Positions 46,793-58,167 of a stretch of 64,000 nucleotides of DNA are shown here, piece by piece (within the stretch, counting starts at the first letter, position 1; the number at the start of each line of letters is the position of its first letter). The notes beneath the pieces were generated by a model. It was not told the DNA's origin, made no database searches, and saw only the letters and a program-made list of their open reading frames with translations. The DNA comes from Selenomonas sp. TAMA-11512. GTDB lineage: Bacteria; Bacillota; Negativicutes; Selenomonadales; Selenomonadaceae. The stretch is taken from positions 1,637,001-1,701,000 of the forward strand of contig NZ_AP029018.1 of the NCBI RefSeq assembly GCF_037076525.1, read 5' to 3'. Position numbers and translations under genes: made by a program.

Positions 46793-48196
46793 TTATGCGC
46801 TCCTCCCCGCATCCCGGGCTTCCTGTGCCGCGTCTTTTTCACCTGTCGGCTGTGTCGTTACACGCCGTTCGTCCGCCGCGGATGCCTCCGCGGGAGACGC
46901 TGCAGCGGGGAGCTCATCGAGCGGCTTTCCCATGCGGTTTTCGATCTGCGCGCGATAGCGTGCATAGCTGTACTGCGCCTCGATGTAGTTCAGCTCCGCA
47001 CGGGAGAGCGCCAGCTCGGCATCGATGATATCGAGCATGATGCCTTCACCGACGCGATACTTTTCGCTTGCGATGTATCGCTCTTCACGCGCGAGCCCCA
47101 CAGCGTCCCTGGTCGCCTCCTGCTTGCGCTCTGCCGCCCGCATATTGTGGTAAGCCTCTCGGATGCTGTAATCGACCGTCTCTCGGTCTTTCTGCAGGGT
47201 GAGCTCAGCGGTCTTGATATCGCTTTCAGCGGCTCTGAGCTTTGCCTCTCTCTGTCCGTTATCGAAAATGTTCCAATTGAGGTTGAGGCCTGCGGACACG
47301 CCATGATTGTGATCATTGGAAGGGCGGTAGTTCCACCCGCCGTTTGTGCCTACAGATAACGACAGCGTCGGATGATACGCCGCCTTGACGAGATCCAGAG
47401 ACACCTTCGCACGCTCCACGGCAATCGAGTCCGACTGCAGATCCTTGCGCATGCGCTGTCCATAGGAGAGGACATCATCAAGCTCTTCCAAAAAGGGCAC
47501 ATACGCGACAGAGGTCGTCAATGTCAAGGGCTCATCGCGGTCGATGTTCGTAAGATTGCGAAGATTCGCCAAGGAGACCTCATAGCTGCTTTCCGAGCTG
47601 ATGAGCGTCTGTTTCGCGTTCGACACTTCGACGGCCGCGCGAAGCACATCCATGCGTGCCTTACTGCCTGCCTGATAGAGAATCTCCGTATTTGACAGAT
47701 GCTTTTCGAGATTCGAGAGCGACTCCCGATTGACGGCGATCGTATCACGCGCCTGCAAAGCGTCGTAATAGGCCTCGACCACCGACAGTCGAAGATCCTC
47801 TCTTGCTCTCTCCGCGGCAAGCCGTGCCGTATCAAGTGCCAGCTCCGCACTGTCGATGTTCTTGTCATTGCTCTTATTGATCAAAGGCATCGAGGCATTG
47901 AGATTGGCGCTTGAACTTGCGTTGGAATTGTGATTGCTTGATCCCTCCGACCATGTCTTACTTGTGTTTGCCGATGCACCGGCAGTCACGGAAACGCCCT
48001 TGCTCCTTCTTGCCTCGTCGAGCTCAGCCGCGCGTCGAACCTCGGATTCCTCCGTGATCTTCTGCCCTGTATTATCCTCTATCGAAAGCCGTACAGCCTG
48101 ATCGAGGGACAGATCGGCGGCTTCCGCTCCCGTCAGCCGCCAGCAGCACAGTCCTGCAAGCAAGAGTGCCCAGCGCTTTCCCCTCCATTTTTTCAT
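46793..48196 (-). CDS. TolC family outer-membrane channel
   Basis: About 467 residues from MKKWRGKRWALLLAG with a signal peptide ending near GAEA-ADL; an alternative start is 48247. Two repeated outer-membrane-efflux halves of long helices (about 25-220 and 240-430), as in TolC. Pro- and Ala-rich C-terminal tail. First gene of TolC-MacA-MacB ATPase-MacB permease, a full tripartite pump for export of a drug, lipid or peptide. Substrate unknown. Confidence 0.92.
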   Translation of the reverse strand: MKKWRGKRWALLLAGLCCWRLTGAEAADLSLDQAVRLSIEDNTGQKITEESEVRRAAELDEARRSKGVSVTAGASANTSKTWSEGSSNHNSNASSSANLNASMPLINKSNDKNIDSAELALDTARLAAERAREDLRLSVVEAYYDALQARDTIAVNRESLSNLEKHLSNTEILYQAGSKARMDVLRAAVEVSNAKQTLISSESSYEVSLANLRNLTNIDRDEPLTLTTSVAYVPFLEELDDVLSYGQRMRKDLQSDSIAVERAKVSLDLVKAAYHPTLSLSVGTNGGWNYRPSNDHNHGVSAGLNLNWNIFDNGQREAKLRAAESDIKTAELTLQKDRETVDYSIREAYHNMRAAERKQEATRDAVGLAREERYIASEKYRVGEGIMLDIIDAELALSRAELNYIEAQYSYARYRAQIENRMGKPLDELPAAASPAEASAADERRVTTQPTGEKDAAQEARDAGRSA

Positions 48197-48376
48197 GCCT
48201 CCACCCCATTCTGTTCCATACGCGGGTCGTGTTGTCTTCCCTTCCATCCGCAGGTATCAAGGCAGATTAACAGGGAATTAACTTCGTAAATTAAACGTAG
48301 TATAGTATCCATTTTTTAAGAAAGCACTGCACAAAGATTAGGTTTTTCTTAAAATGAAGTTATGCAAATATGCCCG

Positions 48377-50791
48377 TCAGACAATGGATATCGGGTCAAT
48401 ATCAATCGTCACATCATTCTCCGTATGCAGATGTATCTCTTTAAGGAATGCCTGCACGGGGGCAAGCTTCACCGCCTTGATGAGCAGGCAGCAGCGGTCG
48501 ATCCCGCGAAGCCTCGCAATCATCGCGGGGGCGGGACCGATGATCTCCACGCCTTGCTCGCTGTGAAACGCTGCCCGGAACCGCGCTTTGACCTCCATGG
48601 CCCATGCCTTGACAGCCTCCTCGCCCGCACGGTGAAACGTCAGCTTGACAAGTCGAACGAACGGAGGATACGACAGGGCTTTCCGCAGCTTGATTTCCTC
48701 CCGATAAAAGCCCTCATAGTCCTGTGCCGCCCCCGTTTGTACGGCATAGTGCTCCGGATTGTAGCACTGCACGACGACACGCCCCTCCTGCTCTCCGCGC
48801 CCGGCACGTCCGGCCGTTTGCGTGATGAGCATAAAGGTGCGCTCCGCCGCCCGATAATCGGGAAGATTGAGGCTCGCATCGGCGCTCAAAATACCGACGG
48901 CTGTGACATTCGGTATGTCATGTCCCTTGGCGACCATCTGCGTACCGAGCAGGACGTCATACTTCTTCTCACGAAAGGCGGTCAGGATTTCCTGATGCGC
49001 AAATTTTCTCCCTGTCGTATCACGATCCATGCGAACGACACGCGCTTGGGGAAACTTCTCCTGCAGCTCGTGCTCGAGCTTCTCCGTCCCGGATCCGAAG
49101 TATCGGATATAGGGACTGCCGCACTTCGGACACGTCATAGGCACAGGCACCTTGATATCACAGTGATGGCAGAGAAGCGATCCGTCCTTGTGGTAGACAA
49201 GCGGCAGCTCACAGCACTCGCACTTCAGCGCCTCGCCGCAGGAGCGGCAGAGTACGAACGTCGAAAATCCGCGGCGATTCAGCATCAGGATGAGCTGCTC
49301 CCCTTTGGCAAGCGTCGCCTCGATCAAAGACTCCAAAGCTCTCGACAGGATTCGTCGATGACCGGACTTCAGCTCCTCCCGCATATCCACACTCTGCACA
49401 ATCGGCAGCGGACGATTGCCGATGCGGTCCGGCATAGAGAGCTTCACAATCTCCCCGCACGCCGCTCGATAAGCAGTCTCCAAAGACGGCGTCGCGCTGC
49501 CGAGAAGCAGCACCGCCCGGTGCATCTTCGCCATTGCCTCCGCGACAACGCGCGCATGGTAGCGCGGCGCCTCATCCTGCTTGTAGGATAGGTCCTGCTC
49601 CTCATCCAGGATGATAAGCCCGACCTCATCCGTTGGGACAAAGAGCGCCGAGCGCGCGCCGATGACGATACCGACCTCTCTCTGACGGAGACGCGCGATC
49701 GCATCGTTGCGCTCCGCCAAAGAAATCTGACTGTGCATGACAATCATATCCTCGGCAAATACGCTCTTGAAGGCAATGACGATCTGACTGGTAAGCGCGA
49801 TCTCCGGCACCAGTACGATGACCTGCTTGCCCTTGGCACGTACAAGGCGTGCTGCCTCTATGTAGACTTGCGTCTTTCCGCTGCCCGTAACTCCCTGCAG
49901 CAGAAACGCCTGCTGCCTCCCCGCCTCAATGCAGGGACGGATTGCCTCCATGGCAATTTTTTGACTCTCGCTAAGCTCTACCGCCTGCTGATACGCTTCT
50001 AGATCACGGTAGCTGTCGCGGAGCTTTCTCCGCTCTTCAATGGTGACAAGCCCTGACTTTTCCGCCGTTCGGATGACCGACGACGAGATATCCTGCGCTT
50101 TGAGTTCCGCGACCGACTGCGGTGATCTCGCTTCCAGACTCTCCAGCAGCTGCCGCTGTTTTGGCGTCAGCTTCCGCGGGCTCATCGCCTCCGCACTTTC
50201 CAAAGACACGGCACGCAGGACAATGCGCTCCAGCTTGATGTTTTCCCGTCTCTTGGCCAGATATTCCTTCTGAATGAGCTTATAGTGCACAAGCTTTTCC
50301 AATAGATTCGGAAGCTGCTCCCTATATAGCGGGAACTTGCCGGACAGCTCATTCGCGCGCACAGGCGCATGTTCTTTGATATAGCTGTAGACGGCTCGAT
50401 ACGTGTCTGCAGCCAACATGGCAGACTCTTTTACATCTGTCAACGCTCTGTAGGCAGCCTCGATGCGAAGTCCGCTTTTCCCGGGCATAAAAAGACGCAT
50501 CGTCTCCGCGCGGGAACACAGATAAAAATCGTGCATCCAATCTGCGAGCGCCAGCGTCCTCTCATTGAACCAAGGCTCATCATCAACGAGTGAAAGGATA
50601 TCCTTTAACGCGATATCACTTGACGGCTGCTCCTTGACCTCAAGGACAAAGCCCTCTACGCTGCGCCCGCCAAACGGAACAAATACGCGCCAGCCGACCT
50701 GCAGGAAGGAAAACTGCTCCGGCACGCGATAGCTGAAAGCGGAAGCAATGCTCTTTAGCGGCAGATTCACATATACATTTGCAACGAGCAT
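48377..50791 (-). CDS. priA: Primosomal protein N' (replication restart helicase)
   Basis: 804 residues from MLVANVYVNLPLKSIASAFS; AGGGGG lies 7 bases before this ATG. N-terminal DNA-binding domain, Walker A GVTGSGKTQVY, DEEQ box (ILDEEQDLSYKQ), and the zinc-binding cysteine cluster CRSCGEALKCECC ... CHHCDI ... CPKCGS between the helicase lobes. Restarts stalled forks. The 180 bases downstream, before the TolC gene, hold an AT-rich inverted repeat (TTTTAAGAAA / TTTCTTAAAA, 48313-48355) and a possible TATACT -10 for the efflux operon. Confidence 0.96.
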   Translation of the reverse strand: MLVANVYVNLPLKSIASAFSYRVPEQFSFLQVGWRVFVPFGGRSVEGFVLEVKEQPSSDIALKDILSLVDDEPWFNERTLALADWMHDFYLCSRAETMRLFMPGKSGLRIEAAYRALTDVKESAMLAADTYRAVYSYIKEHAPVRANELSGKFPLYREQLPNLLEKLVHYKLIQKEYLAKRRENIKLERIVLRAVSLESAEAMSPRKLTPKQRQLLESLEARSPQSVAELKAQDISSSVIRTAEKSGLVTIEERRKLRDSYRDLEAYQQAVELSESQKIAMEAIRPCIEAGRQQAFLLQGVTGSGKTQVYIEAARLVRAKGKQVIVLVPEIALTSQIVIAFKSVFAEDMIVMHSQISLAERNDAIARLRQREVGIVIGARSALFVPTDEVGLIILDEEQDLSYKQDEAPRYHARVVAEAMAKMHRAVLLLGSATPSLETAYRAACGEIVKLSMPDRIGNRPLPIVQSVDMREELKSGHRRILSRALESLIEATLAKGEQLILMLNRRGFSTFVLCRSCGEALKCECCELPLVYHKDGSLLCHHCDIKVPVPMTCPKCGSPYIRYFGSGTEKLEHELQEKFPQARVVRMDRDTTGRKFAHQEILTAFREKKYDVLLGTQMVAKGHDIPNVTAVGILSADASLNLPDYRAAERTFMLITQTAGRAGRGEQEGRVVVQCYNPEHYAVQTGAAQDYEGFYREEIKLRKALSYPPFVRLVKLTFHRAGEEAVKAWAMEVKARFRAAFHSEQGVEIIGPAPAMIARLRGIDRCCLLIKAVKLAPVQAFLKEIHLHTENDVTIDIDPISIV

Positions 50792-50856
50792 CCCTCTGCC
50801 CCCTTTTACGATACAAAGGGCCGCCGCTTCCACGGCAGCCCGAAGCATTGCTCACT

Positions 50857-50873
50857 TTTATCAGCGTTTCCTA
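50857..50873. repeat. Dispersed repeat copy forming the stop of the 3D-domain gene
   Basis: Minus strand TAGGAAACGCTGATAAA, identical to the core copy at speB. Its TAG is the stop codon of the 3D-domain protein gene. Confidence 0.7.
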
Positions 50874-51491
50874 ATTCAAAATAAATATCTCTATATTCTG
50901 TCGGCCGAACATGATTGCTTCATAATGCGTATCAAAGGCGATGTCAATCACATTGCCGCGGATGTTGCCGCCGATATCCTCGGCAACTGCCTCTCCGTAG
51001 CCCGGAATAAAGACCCTCGTCCCCATCGGAATCACTGCGGGATCGACGGCTATGACACCGCGGCGAAGGAGCGTTCCCGAGGCAGTATGTGATCCCATCC
51101 CTGGATCCTCCGGGCTATAGGCGAATGCCGTCACAAACAGCGATCGTGCCCCCGCCGGTGCCGAGGCCGTGCTCATCGGCTGCACAGCAGGCATCTCCGG
51201 GGGCTCCTGCCCTCCCGAGAGCGCGCGATACGTTGCTTCGCCACAGACACCATCTGCCTCCAGTCCCTCTGCCGTCTGGAATTTTCGAATCGCCCCTGCG
51301 GTTCGATTGCCACAAATACCATCCGCTTCGCCGGCTGCCAAATAGCCCTTTTCAATCAGGAGCTCCTGTACTTTTCGGACATGCGCTCCCCGGCTTCCCT
51401 GCTTTACGACGAAAGCAGCCGCAAATCCCGTCTGCATTGACAGCAGCAAACAAATAAGCAGCAGTGTAAGACGCAAAATACATTTCTTCAA
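50871..51491 (-). CDS. Secreted peptidoglycan-binding and 3D-domain protein
   Basis: 206 residues: signal peptide (to about GFAAA), one PG_binding_1 domain (about 30-92; GSRGAHVRKVQELLIEKGYL and GICGNRTAGAIRKFQ), a short linker, and a C-terminal 3D domain named for its three Asp residues (FAYSPEDPGMG, IAVDPAVIPMGTRVFIPGYG, AEDIGGNIRGNVIDIAF). Such proteins (YocH, Rpf-like, MltA-like fold) cut or remodel cell-wall glycan. Its stop codon is provided by a repeat; the family usually ends near this point. Confidence 0.9.
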   Translation of the reverse strand: MKKCILRLTLLLICLLLSMQTGFAAAFVVKQGSRGAHVRKVQELLIEKGYLAAGEADGICGNRTAGAIRKFQTAEGLEADGVCGEATYRALSGGQEPPEMPAVQPMSTASAPAGARSLFVTAFAYSPEDPGMGSHTASGTLLRRGVIAVDPAVIPMGTRVFIPGYGEAVAEDIGGNIRGNVIDIAFDTHYEAIMFGRQNIEIFILN

Positions 51492-51568
51492 GCATATCCC
51501 TCCGCACTTATAGACATCCTGTCAACATACCCTCAAGTATACCAAAAAAATGAATGTACGTCAAAAGT

Positions 51569-51615
51569 CCTTGCTATGTTGCTGTCAAATAAAACCTTGC
51601 TATGTTGCTCTCAAA
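51569..51615. repeat. Two 21-bp direct repeats, period 26
   Basis: CCTTGCTATGTTGCT(G/C)TCAAA occurs twice, differing at one base, in the 230-bp interval between the 3D-domain gene and the acyl-ligase gene. No gene is seen in that interval. Confidence 0.6.
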
Positions 51616-51723
51616 GAAACTCCGCTCCGCGGCTGCCTGTGAATTGCTGTACAAGCCCACGGACAGCAGCGGCTGCACGTACAGGAGATACACCTCATGA
51701 TTGACGCTTCCATTTGAACTGTA

Positions 51724-53046
51724 TCAGCTGCCGTTAAATATATAGCTCCTCAGCCTCTCTTTATCCGCTTTGCCTCGATCATTGATCGGAATTTCATTCA
51801 GATAAAACAGCTTTTTAGGACGCTCCACCGCTGGCAGCTCTTTCCGAATGCGCTTCTCTATCGGCCCTCTTTCCACTGACCTCTCAAGCACAAGGAAGGC
51901 AGCCGCCTCCTCATATCGTCTGCTGTCCTCATAGCCGAGCACCTCTGCGGCTTCGACGCCCTGCATCTTCTCAAGCTTTTCCTTCAGCGCGGCGAGACTG
52001 ATCTTATAACCGCCCTTGTTGACAACATCCGAGCGTCTCCCCAGGAGGCGAAGGTTCCCTTTCTCGTCCAGCGTCCCCAGATCGCCGAGCGCGAACGGAC
52101 ACTTGACATTGCTGACGCGATACGGCGTCGTCACGTAAATAAGCGAATCACGCACCTCAAGCTTGACATTTTCAAACGGGCGTCCGAGATTTCGCTCGTC
52201 AAATCCCTCTCCTTCGAGCTCTCGATATGTGATGTAGTTCAGCTCGCTCGCGCCATAGTAGAGAAAGATATGTGCTGCCGGAAAGCTTCTCCTCAGAGAC
52301 TGCAGCAGTTCTTCGGACAAGAGCTGCGATCCTGTAAAAACGGATTGAATGCCTTGTATGGGCGCCTCTTTTGCCTGCACGAGCAGTCGAAGCTTATTCG
52401 GCACAAGATAGACGACATCCACACCGCTCTCCGACAGCAGATGGTATACCTGTTTGGGCTGGAAGGCTGCCGTTGTAACAAGTGTCGCTCCTCTATAGAG
52501 CACGGCGAGAAAGACATTGAGATTTCCTGTAAACCCGAGGCTGCCGTGCAGATAGAGGCGGCTCTCTTCGCCTATACGAAAGGCAGCGTTTTGCACGGGA
52601 AAGAACGCGGCCCAGCTCGCATACGTCCTGTATAGCACCTTCGGGGCACCTGTGCTGCCCGATGTAAAAACGCCCATGCATCCCTCAGGGGAAGACACAT
52701 TTTCCGTCGTATCCCGGGGACTCCATGAGACTTCTCCCTGCCGCATCGTCAGTATCCCGGCAATATTCTCTGTCGGGCGGCGCGCAAGGCTGTCCATGAC
52801 GCCGGCATGCGCCGCAAGAGGACGCGCTCCTATCCGCTGCAGCGCGAAAAAGAGCGATGCCTCCTCTATGAAATCCTCACTGTAGATGATGACATCGCCC
52901 CTGATGTGAAAATCTTCCAGCTCCTCAGCCAGCGCATCCACATTTGACAGGAATGACGCATACGAAAAAACACGCGCATCCATGCACAAAAAAGGCTTGT
53001 TTCCGTATGCGACGGCTTGCGCCTGTAAGAGCTTATAGTAATTCAT
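51724..53046 (-). CDS. Acyl-adenylating ligase (ANL superfamily, YhfT-like)
   Basis: 440 residues, somewhat short for the superfamily. P-loop VFTSGSTGAPKVLYRT, the YGASELNYITY aromatic/acid motif, hinge GDLGTLDEKGNLRLLGRRSD, and the C-terminal catalytic lysine in INDRGKADKE. It should activate a carboxylic acid to an acyl-adenylate and pass it to CoA or a carrier protein; the acid is unknown. The start overlaps the thiolase stop by 4 bases. In B. subtilis the bioY paralogue yhfU is also grouped with an acyl ligase (yhfT) and a thiolase (yhfS), so this pairing has precedent. Confidence 0.85.
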   Translation of the reverse strand: MNYYKLLQAQAVAYGNKPFLCMDARVFSYASFLSNVDALAEELEDFHIRGDVIIYSEDFIEEASLFFALQRIGARPLAAHAGVMDSLARRPTENIAGILTMRQGEVSWSPRDTTENVSSPEGCMGVFTSGSTGAPKVLYRTYASWAAFFPVQNAAFRIGEESRLYLHGSLGFTGNLNVFLAVLYRGATLVTTAAFQPKQVYHLLSESGVDVVYLVPNKLRLLVQAKEAPIQGIQSVFTGSQLLSEELLQSLRRSFPAAHIFLYYGASELNYITYRELEGEGFDERNLGRPFENVKLEVRDSLIYVTTPYRVSNVKCPFALGDLGTLDEKGNLRLLGRRSDVVNKGGYKISLAALKEKLEKMQGVEAAEVLGYEDSRRYEEAAAFLVLERSVERGPIEKRIRKELPAVERPKKLFYLNEIPINDRGKADKERLRSYIFNGS

Positions 53047-54188
53047 GATGACTCCACCAATATCGCGGTCCCCATGCCGCCGGCGCCGGCGATGGAGAAA
53101 ATGCCCTTGCCGCCTCCGAAAAGCTGCATGGACCGCAGCAGATGCAGGAGATAGACGGCACCGGAAGCGCCATACGGATGTCCGTAGGCAAGCGCGCCGC
53201 CGAGGCGATTATAGCGCTCCTTCAGCTCCGGATGCGCGCGCAAAAAGAGCGCGTTGATAACAGCGAACGCCTCATTGAACTCCACAGCCGCCAATTCTTC
53301 ATAAGAAAGATGATGCTGCCGCAGGAGGCGGTCCGCTGCCTGCATGGCTCCGTAGGGACTGTACGCCGCGTCTCCGCCATAGAGCTCCGTTGCCGATACA
53401 CGCGCCATGGGTGCCATTCCCGTACGCTTCAGATATCGCTCTGAACAAAGGATGACAAAAGCCGCTCCGTCGTTCATCCGACAGGAATTGCCTGCCGTCG
53501 TTGCGCTGTTCTCGCCATAGAAAAGAGGCATCCGCGCGAGCAGCTTTTTCGTGAGCCCGTGATGCGGTCCGTCATCCGCCTTCGCGCCTTGAATCTCATA
53601 GACCAGCGGAGAAAGCCATCCTTCGTTTATTGCACGGCAAGCCTTTTGATGGCTCTCAAGCGCAATCGCATCGAGCTCCGCTCTCATGACGTGCTCTTTG
53701 GCGGCTACACGCTCCGCGCCCTTGAGCATAGCGTCTTCCGCGAGCTCATCGGGAGAGAACTGTGCCGTCATGTACTCCCCCTGCGGGCAGCACGCAGCCC
53801 TCGCATCCCCCTTTGCATATCGGCGGACAGGCTGCAAAGAGCTGCTCTCCATGCCGCCGGCAATGTACACCTCACCCTGCCCCGCCCAAAGACGGGCAGC
53901 GGCATAGTCCACGGCAGCGAGCCCCGAGGCGCACTGCGCGTCGAGCGTCACGGCGGAAATCTCTGCCGGGAGCCCCGCTGTAAGCGCCATGAGCCTGGCT
54001 ATATTCCCGCCTGTCCCGACGGCATTGCCTGCAAAGACGCCGTTCACGTCGGAGACCTCTATATTGTAACGCGTCAAAAGCTTTTGTATGAGCTCGGCGG
54101 CAAGCTTTTCCGGCGGTGTATGCTTATAAAGCCCCATGCGGCGAAGAATAGGCGTCCTGCCGCCGCCCAGAATATAAACGCCTCTCAT
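53043..54188 (-). CDS. Thiolase family protein (YhfS-like) lacking the second catalytic Cys
   Basis: 381 residues from MRGVYILGGGRTP. The acyl-accepting cysteine is Cys86 (LDAQCASGL) and the conserved His337 lies in YGHPYGASG, but the second cysteine, in CxGGGxG of normal thiolases, is Ala367 (SIAGAGGMG). GTG 54197 is an alternative start. With only one catalytic cysteine the enzyme may run in an unusual direction or act as a priming or decarboxylating condensing enzyme. Coupled on both sides: 9 bases after bioY, 4-base overlap with the ligase. Confidence 0.85.
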   Translation of the reverse strand: MRGVYILGGGRTPILRRMGLYKHTPPEKLAAELIQKLLTRYNIEVSDVNGVFAGNAVGTGGNIARLMALTAGLPAEISAVTLDAQCASGLAAVDYAAARLWAGQGEVYIAGGMESSSLQPVRRYAKGDARAACCPQGEYMTAQFSPDELAEDAMLKGAERVAAKEHVMRAELDAIALESHQKACRAINEGWLSPLVYEIQGAKADDGPHHGLTKKLLARMPLFYGENSATTAGNSCRMNDGAAFVILCSERYLKRTGMAPMARVSATELYGGDAAYSPYGAMQAADRLLRQHHLSYEELAAVEFNEAFAVINALFLRAHPELKERYNRLGGALAYGHPYGASGAVYLLHLLRSMQLFGGGKGIFSIAGAGGMGTAILVESS

Positions 54189-54197
54189 GCCCAGCAC

Positions 54198-54734
54198 CTA
54201 CCGTTCCAAGGCGCGATTGAGCTTGACGCCAAGATAGGCCGCCGCGAGCGCTTTCATAATATCTCCGGGGATAAAGGGGAACGCGGACATCACCAGTCCC
54301 TCCCAAAGATTGAGATCCATGACGATCATAATGCCCGCCACACCACCGACATAGGTGATGGGAATGCCGACAAAAATCGCCGCCAGCGCGTAGCGCTTAA
54401 AGTTCGGCTCCTTCCCCTTGAAGTAGCTGATGGCGGGGTATGCCACCATAAAGGCGAAGATAAACCCGCCCGTAGGTCCGAGAATCTTCGCCATGCCGCC
54501 GAATCCGCCCGTAAAGACAGGCAGTCCGACCGCCCCCAGGAGGGTATATGTCAGCATCGTAAAAAATGTCTGCTTCGGTGTCAGAAGAAACGCCGCCAAA
54601 TCCATTGCCAGCGTAATCGCCGAGACCATTCCGGGCGTAAATGGCAGCGGAAAGGCAATGTAAGCGCTGACGCAGCAGAGCGCAACCAGCAGTGCCATTT
54701 TCGTCAACGTCCGCGTATTAAATTCCTGATTCAT
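54198..54734 (-). CDS. bioY: Biotin transporter BioY (ECF S-component)
   Basis: 178 residues from MNQEFNTRTLTKMAL, about six membrane helices. Family signature segments: PFTPGMVSAITLAMDLAAFL and GPTGGFIFAFMVAYP. It binds biotin and works alone or with an ECF energising module, whose genes are not in this window. Its start overlaps the hydratase stop by 4 bases (ATGA). Confidence 0.95.
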   Translation of the reverse strand: MNQEFNTRTLTKMALLVALCCVSAYIAFPLPFTPGMVSAITLAMDLAAFLLTPKQTFFTMLTYTLLGAVGLPVFTGGFGGMAKILGPTGGFIFAFMVAYPAISYFKGKEPNFKRYALAAIFVGIPITYVGGVAGIMIVMDLNLWEGLVMSAFPFIPGDIMKALAAAYLGVKLNRALER

Positions 54735-55273
54735 ACAATCCCCTCTATTCTGTATCTGCACTGTCCGTCGACAATGCCCAAAAATATATTCTCTTTTTCT
54801 TGCAGCTCAACAAGCTCTCCCGCATAGATCGGCGCGCAGAACTTCATCTGCAGCGCCGCTGCTGCCGGATGCATCTCCAGAAACGTATGCAGGAGCAGCA
54901 GCCCGGGAACGACGGGGCACGATGTCCGATGTATCGGATTTTTATCCCCCGTCGCCTCAAGAAAAACCGCGATTTCCTCCGGTGTAAAGCGATGTCCGCC
55001 CGATGACAGCCGATTTCCGGCCTCTCCCTTCTCCCGACGTTCCGCTCGTACATATCCCTCTCCGACAGGACGCAGCAAGTCAATCGACAGACGGCCTTGC
55101 TTTCCCTCCGCGGTCTCTGCCGCTAAAAGCGAGAGTACCCGTCTCGTATCCCGAAGAATGTGCACGCCGCGAGTCTCGCCACGTGTATCCCTTTGCCACG
55201 CGAGCCTGGCGATCATCGCCCCGCTATACGCCTCCGGAGAAATCGCAGAGAGCATTTTTGCCAAGTGAATCAT
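54731..55273 (-). CDS. MaoC-like hot-dog hydratase (enoyl-thioester hydratase-like)
   Basis: 180 residues. The C-terminal half is a MaoC-type hot-dog domain: FTPEEIAVFLEATGDKNPIH, in which Asp110 and His115 form the hydratase catalytic pair, followed by PVVPGLLLLHTFL. The N-terminal half (1-90) does not match a second clear hot-dog and is unidentified; it may be a degenerate one, as in two-domain (R)-hydratases. First gene of the operon. Expected to hydrate or dehydrate a 2-enoyl/3-hydroxyacyl thioester. Confidence 0.7.
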   Translation of the reverse strand: MIHLAKMLSAISPEAYSGAMIARLAWQRDTRGETRGVHILRDTRRVLSLLAAETAEGKQGRLSIDLLRPVGEGYVRAERREKGEAGNRLSSGGHRFTPEEIAVFLEATGDKNPIHRTSCPVVPGLLLLHTFLEMHPAAAALQMKFCAPIYAGELVELQEKENIFLGIVDGQCRYRIEGIV

Positions 55274-55298
55274 CGTCTTGATTTCCTCCCGATTTTGT

Positions 55299-55350
55299 AT
55301 TATACGGGAACTCGCTTATTTCGTCAACTTGTTGTTTTTATAGTTAACCA
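55299..55350 (-). promoter_or_regulatory. Promoter with BirA-like operator for the hydratase-bioY-thiolase-ligase operon
   Basis: TTGACG (55322-55327), 17 bases, TATAAT (55299-55304). An inverted repeat TGGTTAACT-N12-AGTTGACGA (55321-55350) covers the -35 box. Its halves resemble the Firmicutes BirA half-site (TTGTTAAC type), with two mismatches in the promoter-proximal half. The overlap fits repression by biotin-bound BirA. Confidence 0.65.
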
Positions 55351-55456
55351 TATAAAGTCAAATGCGTATCTTTCAGAAAAAGTATATGCGCAAGTATCCG
55401 CTTTCATGACTTGCACCGATTGCCTGTTCCTGCCACACCTTCTATGCATCGGTATA

Positions 55457-55487
55457 AGAAAACAGCCCATCCGCACAGATGAGCTGC
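55457..55487 (-). terminator. Intrinsic terminator-like hairpin between cysE and the bioY operon
   Basis: Minus strand CAGCTCATC, TGTGCG loop, GATGGGCTG, then TTTTCTT. It lies about 90 bases downstream of cysE. Confidence 0.75.
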
Positions 55488-55576
55488 AACCTTATTGTTA
55501 TTCATCTCTTGGCGGATTGAGTACAATGACAGTGCTCGTGCATCCGCCCGCTCTTCCTCTATTCCGGGCACTATAT

Positions 55577-56527
55577 TCAAATCGTATAGAACCAACTGTC
55601 ATCCTCTTCCATATCAATCTGCTTGACGTGCTTTCCCTTTTGGTCAATGCGAAGCTCCTGATTCTTGACACTGATTTGCGTACCAGGAGCGACACTTCTC
55701 GTGATGAACACATTGCCACCGATGGTCGAGCCTTCTCCAATGACAGTCTCCCCACCGAGAATAGATGCACCCGAGTAGATCGTTACATGGTCCTCGATGG
55801 TCGGATGGCGGCGCTTGCCTCGCAGTGATTGTCCTCCCCGCGTCGAGAGCGCGCCGAGCGTCACACCCTGATAGATCTTGACGTGCTCGCCGATGACGGT
55901 CGTCTCCCCAATGACAACCCCCGTCGCGTGATCAATGAAGAAGTACTTTCCGATGGTGGCTCCCGGGTGGATGTCGACGCCCGTCTCGCTGTGGGCGTAT
56001 TCACTCATGATCCGTGGGATGATGGGAACGTTGAGCTTGTAGAGAGCATGCGCCAGACGGTGTACCGTAATCGCATAGAGCCCCGGATACGAATAGATGA
56101 CTTCCGCTTCATTGGCAGCCGCCGGGTCACCCTCAAACGTAGCATGGACATCCAGCTCGATGTAGGCACGAATCGTCGGAATTTCCCGCAGAAATGCGAG
56201 CACGATTTCCTCCGCCTTCTCCTCGCAGCTCGTTTCGGATCCTTCGTCTTGCTTATTGTATTTCAGCGCTACGACGATCTGCTTGTTGAGCAGATAAGCG
56301 ACGTCCTCCATCACCATCGTGAGGTTGTTCTCGATGCTGTAGATGCGATACGTTTCATCCTTGAAATAGCCCGGAAATATAATGCGAATCAGCTTCTCAA
56401 GAATGTTGATCACGGTCTTCTTATCCGGACGGCTAAAGAGATCCATTCGATCGATGGTGCGGCTCTTTCGGTAGTCCGCTAAGATCGAATCGATAACGCC
56501 ATGCAGTTCCTGTTCAATACGTGCCAT
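55577..56527 (-). CDS. cysE: Serine O-acetyltransferase (EpsC-type)
   Basis: 316 residues. N-terminal helical domain (about 1-165) and left-handed beta-helix (about 170-270) with HPGATIGKYFFIDHATGVV, GETTVIGEHVKIYQGVTLGA and GKRRHPTIEDHV, the CysE active-site segments. Makes O-acetylserine for cysteine. The C-terminus is longer than in E. coli. No O-acetylserine lyase gene is adjacent. Confidence 0.93.
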   Translation of the reverse strand: MARIEQELHGVIDSILADYRKSRTIDRMDLFSRPDKKTVINILEKLIRIIFPGYFKDETYRIYSIENNLTMVMEDVAYLLNKQIVVALKYNKQDEGSETSCEEKAEEIVLAFLREIPTIRAYIELDVHATFEGDPAAANEAEVIYSYPGLYAITVHRLAHALYKLNVPIIPRIMSEYAHSETGVDIHPGATIGKYFFIDHATGVVIGETTVIGEHVKIYQGVTLGALSTRGGQSLRGKRRHPTIEDHVTIYSGASILGGETVIGEGSTIGGNVFITRSVAPGTQISVKNQELRIDQKGKHVKQIDMEEDDSWFYTI

Positions 56528-56540
56528 ACAACGCCCTTTC

Positions 56541-57290
56541 TTACTCCCTTTCCCCCAAAAGCCAAGGGAGAAAATGTCCTATCTGCAGTTTCCACCAATA
56601 CCAATTGTGCCCAGAATCCTCGCCCCAGAAATCCGCCCACACACAGATGCGCTTCCAATGCAGAATATTGACCAATTCTTTCGCAGACGCCAGTTCGTGC
56701 TGCTCATCAAAGCTCTGTCCGCTGCAAACGGCAATTTTCTTCGAATTGTAGAGATCGATATAGGGATGCGTATCCGACATATTCGGTAAAAAATCCACGG
56801 GCGAATTGTCATAGAGAAAGCTGTTCAGCCATCCGTCATAGTGAATCTTGGCGTCATAGGTCGCAGACATCGACAAGACGCCCGAGAAGAGCTCGGGACG
56901 ACGAAGGAACATGATCATCGCCGACAACCCGCCGCTGTCCGCCCCCATGCACAGCGGCAAAATACCTGCAAATCCATGCTGCTGAATGTATGTAAAGACT
57001 TCATCTATGATGTACTCGTAGTATGCTTCCTGGCGATTGGCGCGCCACTCGATATCTCCCTGATAGTTGAACCACGTTTCGTGGTCGACGGAATCAACGG
57101 TAAAAACCGTAATCTTTTTCCCCTCAATCCATGGAGACAGCAGATCGATAACGCCTTCCTGATCCCATTCATAGGGTGAGCCATAGCGCGTTGGAAATGC
57201 CAGGATTGGCATGCCGCCGTTCCCATAGATGCAAATCTTCATATCCCGCCCCAAGATTTTGCTGTTCCATGCGTCCTCTCTTCGTTCCAT
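56541..57290 (-). CDS. Esterase-like alpha/beta hydrolase with Asp at the nucleophile position
   Basis: 249 residues, similar to the small esterase family with FPTRYGSPYEWDQ near the N-terminus, SVDHETWFNY, and the C-terminal GEDSGHNWYWW carrying the catalytic His. The nucleophile elbow, normally G-x-S-x-G (GCSFGG), reads G116-A-D118-S-G120: Asp replaces Ser, with Ser119 beside it. Asp nucleophiles occur in haloalkane dehalogenases and epoxide hydrolases of this fold. It lies 13 bases upstream of cysE on the same strand, so the two are probably co-transcribed. Confidence 0.8.
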   Translation of the reverse strand: MERREDAWNSKILGRDMKICIYGNGGMPILAFPTRYGSPYEWDQEGVIDLLSPWIEGKKITVFTVDSVDHETWFNYQGDIEWRANRQEAYYEYIIDEVFTYIQQHGFAGILPLCMGADSGGLSAMIMFLRRPELFSGVLSMSATYDAKIHYDGWLNSFLYDNSPVDFLPNMSDTHPYIDLYNSKKIAVCSGQSFDEQHELASAKELVNILHWKRICVWADFWGEDSGHNWYWWKLQIGHFLPWLLGERE

Positions 57291-57429
57291 AGCGCGACCT
57301 CCTAACCATATATTACGCTATATCCCTCATTAGTATACGATATGGCAGCCTTATCGACAAGGAAAATCTGTTCTTTATCACATATCAGCGCACATGGTAT
57401 AATACAGGAAACCGAAAGGAGAAATCATC

Positions 57430-58167
57430 ATGCAGCTGAAAAAATTCTTGCTCACGGCGCTCCTGCTCACGCTTATCCTTTCTCTTCGACTGACAGAAGC
57501 TGCCGTGCCTCTGCCTCTTCACCCGGCTCTGCCATACTTCACCGAGATGTCCGAGGGAAGGACGCAGTATATCGGCGCACTTGAGCGGCACTTCAAGAAG
57601 CGCACGTTTATAAAGACCGGCAGCGAAGCGGAACGGATGCGTATGCTGCTCACAGACCTTACGTCTCGCCTATCGATGCACGGAGAGCACACGGTTCTGC
57701 TTCTCAATGAAAAGCACTGGAATGCCTACGCGCTCCCCGGAAATATAATCGTCGTGACGAAGGGTCTCGCCGATGGCCTCAACGATACGGAGCTGACCGC
57801 CCTTCTGCTCCATGAGCTGGGTCATATCGCGCTCGATCACCCCGGCTCCGCGCTTCAGCGCACGAAAGATGCGCAGAAATCACTCGATAAAAGTGCCGCC
57901 TTCTTGGAGGCGGGACAATACGAGGCGGCAGCCGAGGAGTTTGTCGCCGCTATCTACAAGGGGCGTGTGGAGCGCTCCGAGGAGATTGCCGCCGACGTAT
58001 GGGCAGCGGAACACCTCCAAGAGACGGGACTCACCGCAGAAGAAGTCACGCAGTATCTCCGCCATGCGCAAAAAAAGCTGGGCGACTCTTTCGACGGCAC
58101 CCAGCATCCCTCTTTTGACGAGAGGATACGCATCTTTGAGCGTGTCAATAAAAATATATCCTTATAA
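57430..58167 (+). CDS. Exported M48-family metallopeptidase
   Basis: 245 residues. Signal peptide to about LTEA; the zinc motif HELGH is at 128-132 (LLLHELGHIALDH) and the third ligand Glu is in SEEIAADVWAAE. Family members (BepA, LoiP, YcaL types) are periplasmic quality-control proteases in diderms. No lipobox Cys is seen. Ribosome-binding site AAAGGAG. It converges with rplQ, with a shared terminator. Confidence 0.9.
   Translation: MQLKKFLLTALLLTLILSLRLTEAAVPLPLHPALPYFTEMSEGRTQYIGALERHFKKRTFIKTGSEAERMRMLLTDLTSRLSMHGEHTVLLLNEKHWNAYALPGNIIVVTKGLADGLNDTELTALLLHELGHIALDHPGSALQRTKDAQKSLDKSAAFLEAGQYEAAAEEFVAAIYKGRVERSEEIAADVWAAEHLQETGLTAEEVTQYLRHAQKKLGDSFDGTQHPSFDERIRIFERVNKNISL

Follow-up and report, generated by a model that had tools for sequence, protein, structure and literature searches.

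In Bacillus subtilis and Staphylococcus aureus, the transporter component BioY, the acyl ligase YhfT and the thiolase homologue YhfS are already known to belong to the BirA regulon, and BirA of S. aureus binds and represses the yhfS-yhfT promoter (PMC6391492). Both YhfS and YhfT figure in lists of BirA targets, with an unclear role so far. The same trio is found beside a biotin transporter in Sinorhizobium meliloti (BioY/SMc00965/SMc00966) and Azospirillum (bioMNY-ligase-thiolase); the published regulator of the S. meliloti set is NolR, and its BioY, ligase and thiolase genes were lowered together in a nolR+ strain (PMC12445080). Here, a four-gene operon of Selenomonas sp. TAMA-11512 was analysed within a window of 64,000 nucleotides (contig NZ_AP029018.1, 1,637,001 to 1,701,000), to which all coordinates refer. 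It encodes a MaoC-like hot-dog protein (HYD), BioY (BIOY), a thiolase homologue (THI) and an acyl-adenylating enzyme (LIG). Like the B. subtilis and S. aureus sets, it combines BioY with an acyl ligase and a thiolase homologue under a BirA-type operator, as the first-pass annotation of this DNA had recognized; unlike them, it is led by the MaoC-like gene. The set is real, conserved, under BirA-type control and kin to the YhfT/YhfS/BioY group, with a MaoC-like partner and an altered thiolase in addition. No description of the cysteine loss in the thiolase, of the MaoC-like partner or of the wide distribution of the set was found in the literature.

Organization of the operon

The operon comprises the following features, in the order HYD-BIOY-THI-LIG:

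55323..55348, minus strand: BirA-type operator GTTAAC-N14-GTTGAC, an imperfect inverted repeat (genome pattern search, upstream regions of relatives)
55299..55327, minus strand: promoter TTGACG-17-TATAAT (sequence; 11 of 12 consensus matches)
54731..55273, minus strand: HYD, MaoC/hydratase-2-like double hot-dog protein of 180 amino acids (family alignment, AlphaFold, Foldseek, profile match)
54198..54734, minus strand: BIOY, S component of a biotin transporter (Pfam BioY, 5e-32)
53043..54188, minus strand: THI, thiolase-fold protein with alanine replacing the second catalytic cysteine (Pfam thiolase N and C, alignments, AlphaFold)
51724..53046, minus strand: LIG, AMP-forming acyl ligase (Pfam AMP-binding, 6e-26; motifs conserved in 18 orthologues)

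The four genes are coupled. The coordinates agree with the two 4-base overlaps and the 9-base gap first described for them: HYD and BIOY as well as THI and LIG overlap in ATGA, and the gap between BIOY and THI is counted to the conserved THI ATG at 54188. A longer THI reading frame would start at the GTG at 54197, and the methionine at residue 4 of this longer form is nearly invariant among the orthologues. In the alignment of the 18 orthologues, LIG retained the motifs expected for adenylation along with the C-terminal GK; it gave its top scores with acyl-CoA synthetase models.

At 51536-51620, on the downstream side of the operon, the direct repeat GCAACATAGCAAGG is followed by a promoter-like site TTGACG-17-TATACT. 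This site precedes a gene at 51491 that looks peptidoglycan-binding-like by eye, and no GTTAAC half-site was seen there.

Probable BirA-type control

The -35 element of the promoter overlaps the right half-operator, so that the previously described placement of the -35 inside a BirA-like inverted repeat was confirmed by the sequence. The strict pattern GTTAACN{13,17}GTTRAC matched only once in the whole 2.59 Mb genome, at this operator, and the reversed control pattern gave no match. Of 33 bioY loci (the window locus and its relatives, some of which are near relatives, so that the count is not fully independent), 25 had a match to a slightly looser pattern no more than 250 bases upstream of their first gene, against one match in 293 kb elsewhere. 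A chance occurrence of the operator was therefore rejected. The two GTTAAC-like half-sites with a spacing in the range of about 14-17 bases, their overlap with the promoter and their conservation in relatives correspond to BirA regulons of the Firmicutes type.

The solitary bioB gene of the same genome carries a variant operator, GTAAAC-N16-GTTGACGA, which is one base off the strict pattern and overlaps the -35 element of bioB itself. A BirA with a DNA-binding domain, looked for in the genome, was present: the single biotin ligase is a BirA of 331 amino acids with an HTH_11 domain (E 2.4e-15) and BPL domains. An Rfam search of positions 48000-58000 revealed no riboswitch or other RNA element, and control by RNA was rejected. 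The unique operator, its conservation in relatives, the bioB variant and the HTH_11 domain of BirA lend good support to the BirA-type control proposed at the outset. On this basis the operon is very probably repressed by BirA and would be switched on under biotin scarcity. Adjoining bioB (L038:10436-10951), a small membrane protein was noticed that resembles the substrate-binding component of an energy-coupling factor (ECF) transporter and looks ThiW-like by eye.

The thiolase homologue

Comparison of THI with canonical thiolases revealed the thiolase fold, the nucleophilic cysteine and the Asn and His motifs (Cys89, Asn308 and His340, with numbering that starts at the GTG at 54197). The second catalytic cysteine is missing: THI has AGAGG where ordinary thiolases have a CIGGG loop, with alanine at the cysteine position. 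In the Zoogloea thiolase this position is Cys378, which abstracts the proton as the base of the Claisen step (PMC3406046). The cysteine was replaced by alanine or glycine in all 28 thiolases of the set that were aligned (22 from Negativicutes operons, six alphaproteobacterial and one from Streptantibioticus, minus one near-duplicate Negativicutes row), including those of S. meliloti and Azospirillum, whereas it was present in 15 of 15 canonical thiolases, which were set apart by a branch with a support of 100/98. The Pseudosulfitobacter thiolase, on a long branch and poorly placed, lacks the asparagine too.

The AlphaFold model of THI (pLDDT 93.4) resembled biosynthetic thiolases with a Z score of about 56; the comparison lists thiolases only and has no bearing on the reaction. 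The best NCBIfam equivalog was PRK06690 with 230 bits, under its cut-off of 498 bits, which makes THI a relative outside this equivalog. Among 14 control genomes this model matched only B. subtilis, which fits its being YhfS. An altered CxG motif in a thiolase fold has also been described for TLP1 of Mycobacterium smegmatis (PMC3406046); however, TLP1 lacks the CxS, NEAF and GHP motifs as well, all three of which are retained in THI. Judged from its sequence, THI is not a normal thiolase.

The MaoC-like partner

The HYD sequence alone matched no Pfam or NCBIfam family above cut-off (Pfam MaoC: 11.7 bits, cut-off 27 bits), and its assignment to a known family of these collections was rejected. 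A profile of the HYD family, in turn, matched the (R)-specific enoyl-CoA hydratase 1iq6. The catalytic Asp and His of MaoC/enoyl-CoA hydratase 2 proteins were found in the motif D110-x-N112-x-x-H115, invariant across 18 family members, which also have a P-G motif in common. The AlphaFold model (pLDDT 87.9) is a double hot-dog, and Foldseek placed it closest to HtdX (4oob, E 2.4e-7) and hydratase-2 (1s9c, E 8e-7). Family profile, fold model and motif thus bear out the earlier description of the fourth gene as MaoC-like.

Distribution of the gene set

The set was surveyed in 214 Negativicutes genomes that were at least 95% complete. The THI profile separated sharply, with full-length scores of at least 450 bits against less than 300 bits for ordinary thiolases, and detected THI in 98 genomes, four partial matches included. 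HYD was found in 79 genomes, 71 of them with THI (27 of 28 by genus); its gene occurs almost only alongside THI. Kinship of the genomes inflates the P values of such co-occurrence, but the counts by genus and the cases without linkage draw on more than one lineage.

The linkage looked for in relatives was found in several gene orders, namely HYD-BIOY-THI-LIG, BIOY-LIG-HYD-THI, BIOY-HYD-THI-LIG and HYD-THI-LIG. In two genomes of the S. ruminantium type (G123 and G132; L086-L089) the set is split into a HYD-BIOY and a distant THI-LIG half, each behind its own operator, which is strong evidence for one function under one regulator. A few Negativicutes genomes (L099, L101) carry HYD and BIOY behind an operator without this type of thiolase. 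In one genome (G184, L104:4861-6090) the ligase gene of the set gave two matches separated by a short gap, possibly a frameshift.

Beyond the Negativicutes, an ECF biotin transporter together with such a ligase and thiolase was found on plasmids of Azospirillum, S. meliloti (pSymB), Pseudosulfitobacter and Streptantibioticus. In the S. meliloti and Azospirillum sets, a 4HBT thioesterase, an MDR dehydrogenase or an MFS protein stands in place of HYD. The thioesterase and the dehydrogenase adjoin the set in rhizobia, and they are what a chain-modifying pathway would want. On Rhizobium plasmids (L077:2999-7137, L080, L085), genes for an MDR dehydrogenase, a 4HBT thioesterase, a ligase and a cysteine-less thiolase lie together, with no BioY adjacent.

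Biotin synthesis and beta-oxidation

The first-pass annotation had proposed a biotin-repressed route that makes or salvages a pimeloyl-type precursor, a reading suggested by a biotin-controlled set of ligase, hydratase and thiolase. A search of the complete genome detected bioB, and neither bioF nor bioD. Pimeloyl-CoA therefore could not become biotin, and finishing dethiobiotin is the most that this genome could do. Across the class, bioF was present in 52 of the 98 genomes with THI and in 52 of the 116 without it (Fisher P 0.27 by genome, 0.82 by genus), and THI was likewise independent of bioB (P 0.48). No bioF was found in 46 THI genomes, spread over 22 genera, and seven of these have no bioB either. 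Since the set also occurs where bioF, bioD or bioB is missing, it is not bound to de novo biotin synthesis. These results contradict the proposed route, which was rejected; even with bioF in over half of the THI genomes, a pimeloyl precursor as product is very unlikely.

Likewise, the notion of a beta-oxidation or reverse beta-oxidation cycle did not hold. The genome contained no 3-hydroxyacyl-CoA dehydrogenase in a search with PF00725 (FabG-type reductases lie outside this search) and no thiolase besides THI, which itself lacks the Claisen base cysteine. A CoA-based cycle was therefore rejected. The weaker idea of an acyl pathway used under biotin scarcity may still hold.

Proposed function

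Probably, the set does not make a biotin precursor and processes another small acid, possibly damaged biotin; that this acid is linked to BioY is likely. It is quite possible, if short of probable, that the BirA-repressed module imports a carboxylic acid, activates it and extends it by two carbons, the acid being perhaps a biotin vitamer whose side chain has been shortened. BioY would import the acid, either biotin or a biotin vitamer, and LIG would convert it to an adenylate and then to a thioester. THI would take over the acyl group on Cys89, aided by its Asn/His oxyanion residues. The subsequent condensation would most plausibly be decarboxylative and ketosynthase-like, with malonyl-CoA or malonyl-ACP, since loss of the Claisen base with retention of Cys-Asn-His is tolerable for a decarboxylating condensing enzyme, for which a dehydratase such as HYD would then be useful. 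A general FabG-type ketoreductase and an enoyl reductase would act on the product, with HYD as the dedicated dehydratase, and the imported acid would leave the pathway longer by two carbons. The alphaproteobacterial BioZ pathway (PMC11089781), in which a dedicated condensing enzyme works with general fatty-acid enzymes, served as the model. BioZ differs in being KASIII-like and in yielding 3-ketopimeloyl-ACP, and bioF is absent from the Selenomonas genome. Our guess at the favoured substrate is a vitamer with a beta-oxidised side chain, for example bisnorbiotin, that would be restored to biotin; such vitamers are preferred because the linkage of the set follows the transporter and not biotin synthesis or lipid genes. 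Taken as a whole, widespread and biotin-repressed repair of biotin vitamers, in which BioY imports the bisnorbiotin type, LIG activates it, a decarboxylating THI adds two carbons and HYD with fatty-acid reductases completes biotin, is a doubtful proposition.

Several points weigh against two-carbon extension. The exact substrate is a guess, and decarboxylative chemistry is hypothetical for a thiolase of this type. The decarboxylative step would spend malonyl-CoA, itself the product of a biotin enzyme. HYD is missing from 27 of the 98 THI genomes and is therefore not essential to the core reaction, and in Negativicutes the set has neither a ketoreductase nor an enoyl reductase linked to it. Our literature search gave no evidence for bisnorbiotin supporting growth of such bacteria, and literature on yhfST function, the BioY-ligase-thiolase set, a valerate/biotin link in Selenomonas and bacterial bisnorbiotin use contained nothing decisive.

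Two rival explanations remain live. The set might spare biotin in lipid supply: with acetyl-CoA carboxylase limited by biotin, LIG would activate exogenous short or medium fatty acids, which THI and HYD would help to bring into fatty-acid synthesis as primers. The biotin control signals at the operon, the best scores of LIG against acyl-CoA synthetase models and the published description of S. aureus BirA as a regulator of 'fatty acid elongation' (PMC6391492) agree with such a role, but the linkage to BioY in several lineages (to a full ECF transporter in Alphaproteobacteria and an actinomycete) points to an imported compound and not to lipids in general, and condensation with acetyl-CoA would require the base that THI has lost, which leaves this explanation possible though somewhat doubtful. 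Alternatively, THI might pass the LIG thioester to another carrier or acceptor without chain extension, for storage, detoxification of biotin analogues or release of a vitamer. Plain transfer would account for the retention of Cys89 and the oxyanion residues despite the lost Claisen base, and for the 4HBT thioesterase neighbour in rhizobia; the invariant D-x-N-x-x-H of HYD would be superfluous to it, and we consider it unlikely. That the three enzymes accompany bioY as passengers and have no function in common is hardly credible: BioY does stand alone with an operator in several relatives, but the enzymes co-occur when unlinked, both split halves carry operators and the set recurs in distant lineages.

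Independence from biotin synthesis, the tie to a biotin transporter in distant lineages and the altered thiolase narrow the possible function of such sets, and a long-standing annotation gap becomes testable chemistry. If vitamer repair were true, it would be a third way of obtaining biotin, next to synthesizing it and taking it up directly; auxotrophs could then use the degraded vitamin, and the exchange of vitamins in communities of the gut, the rumen and the soil would be affected.

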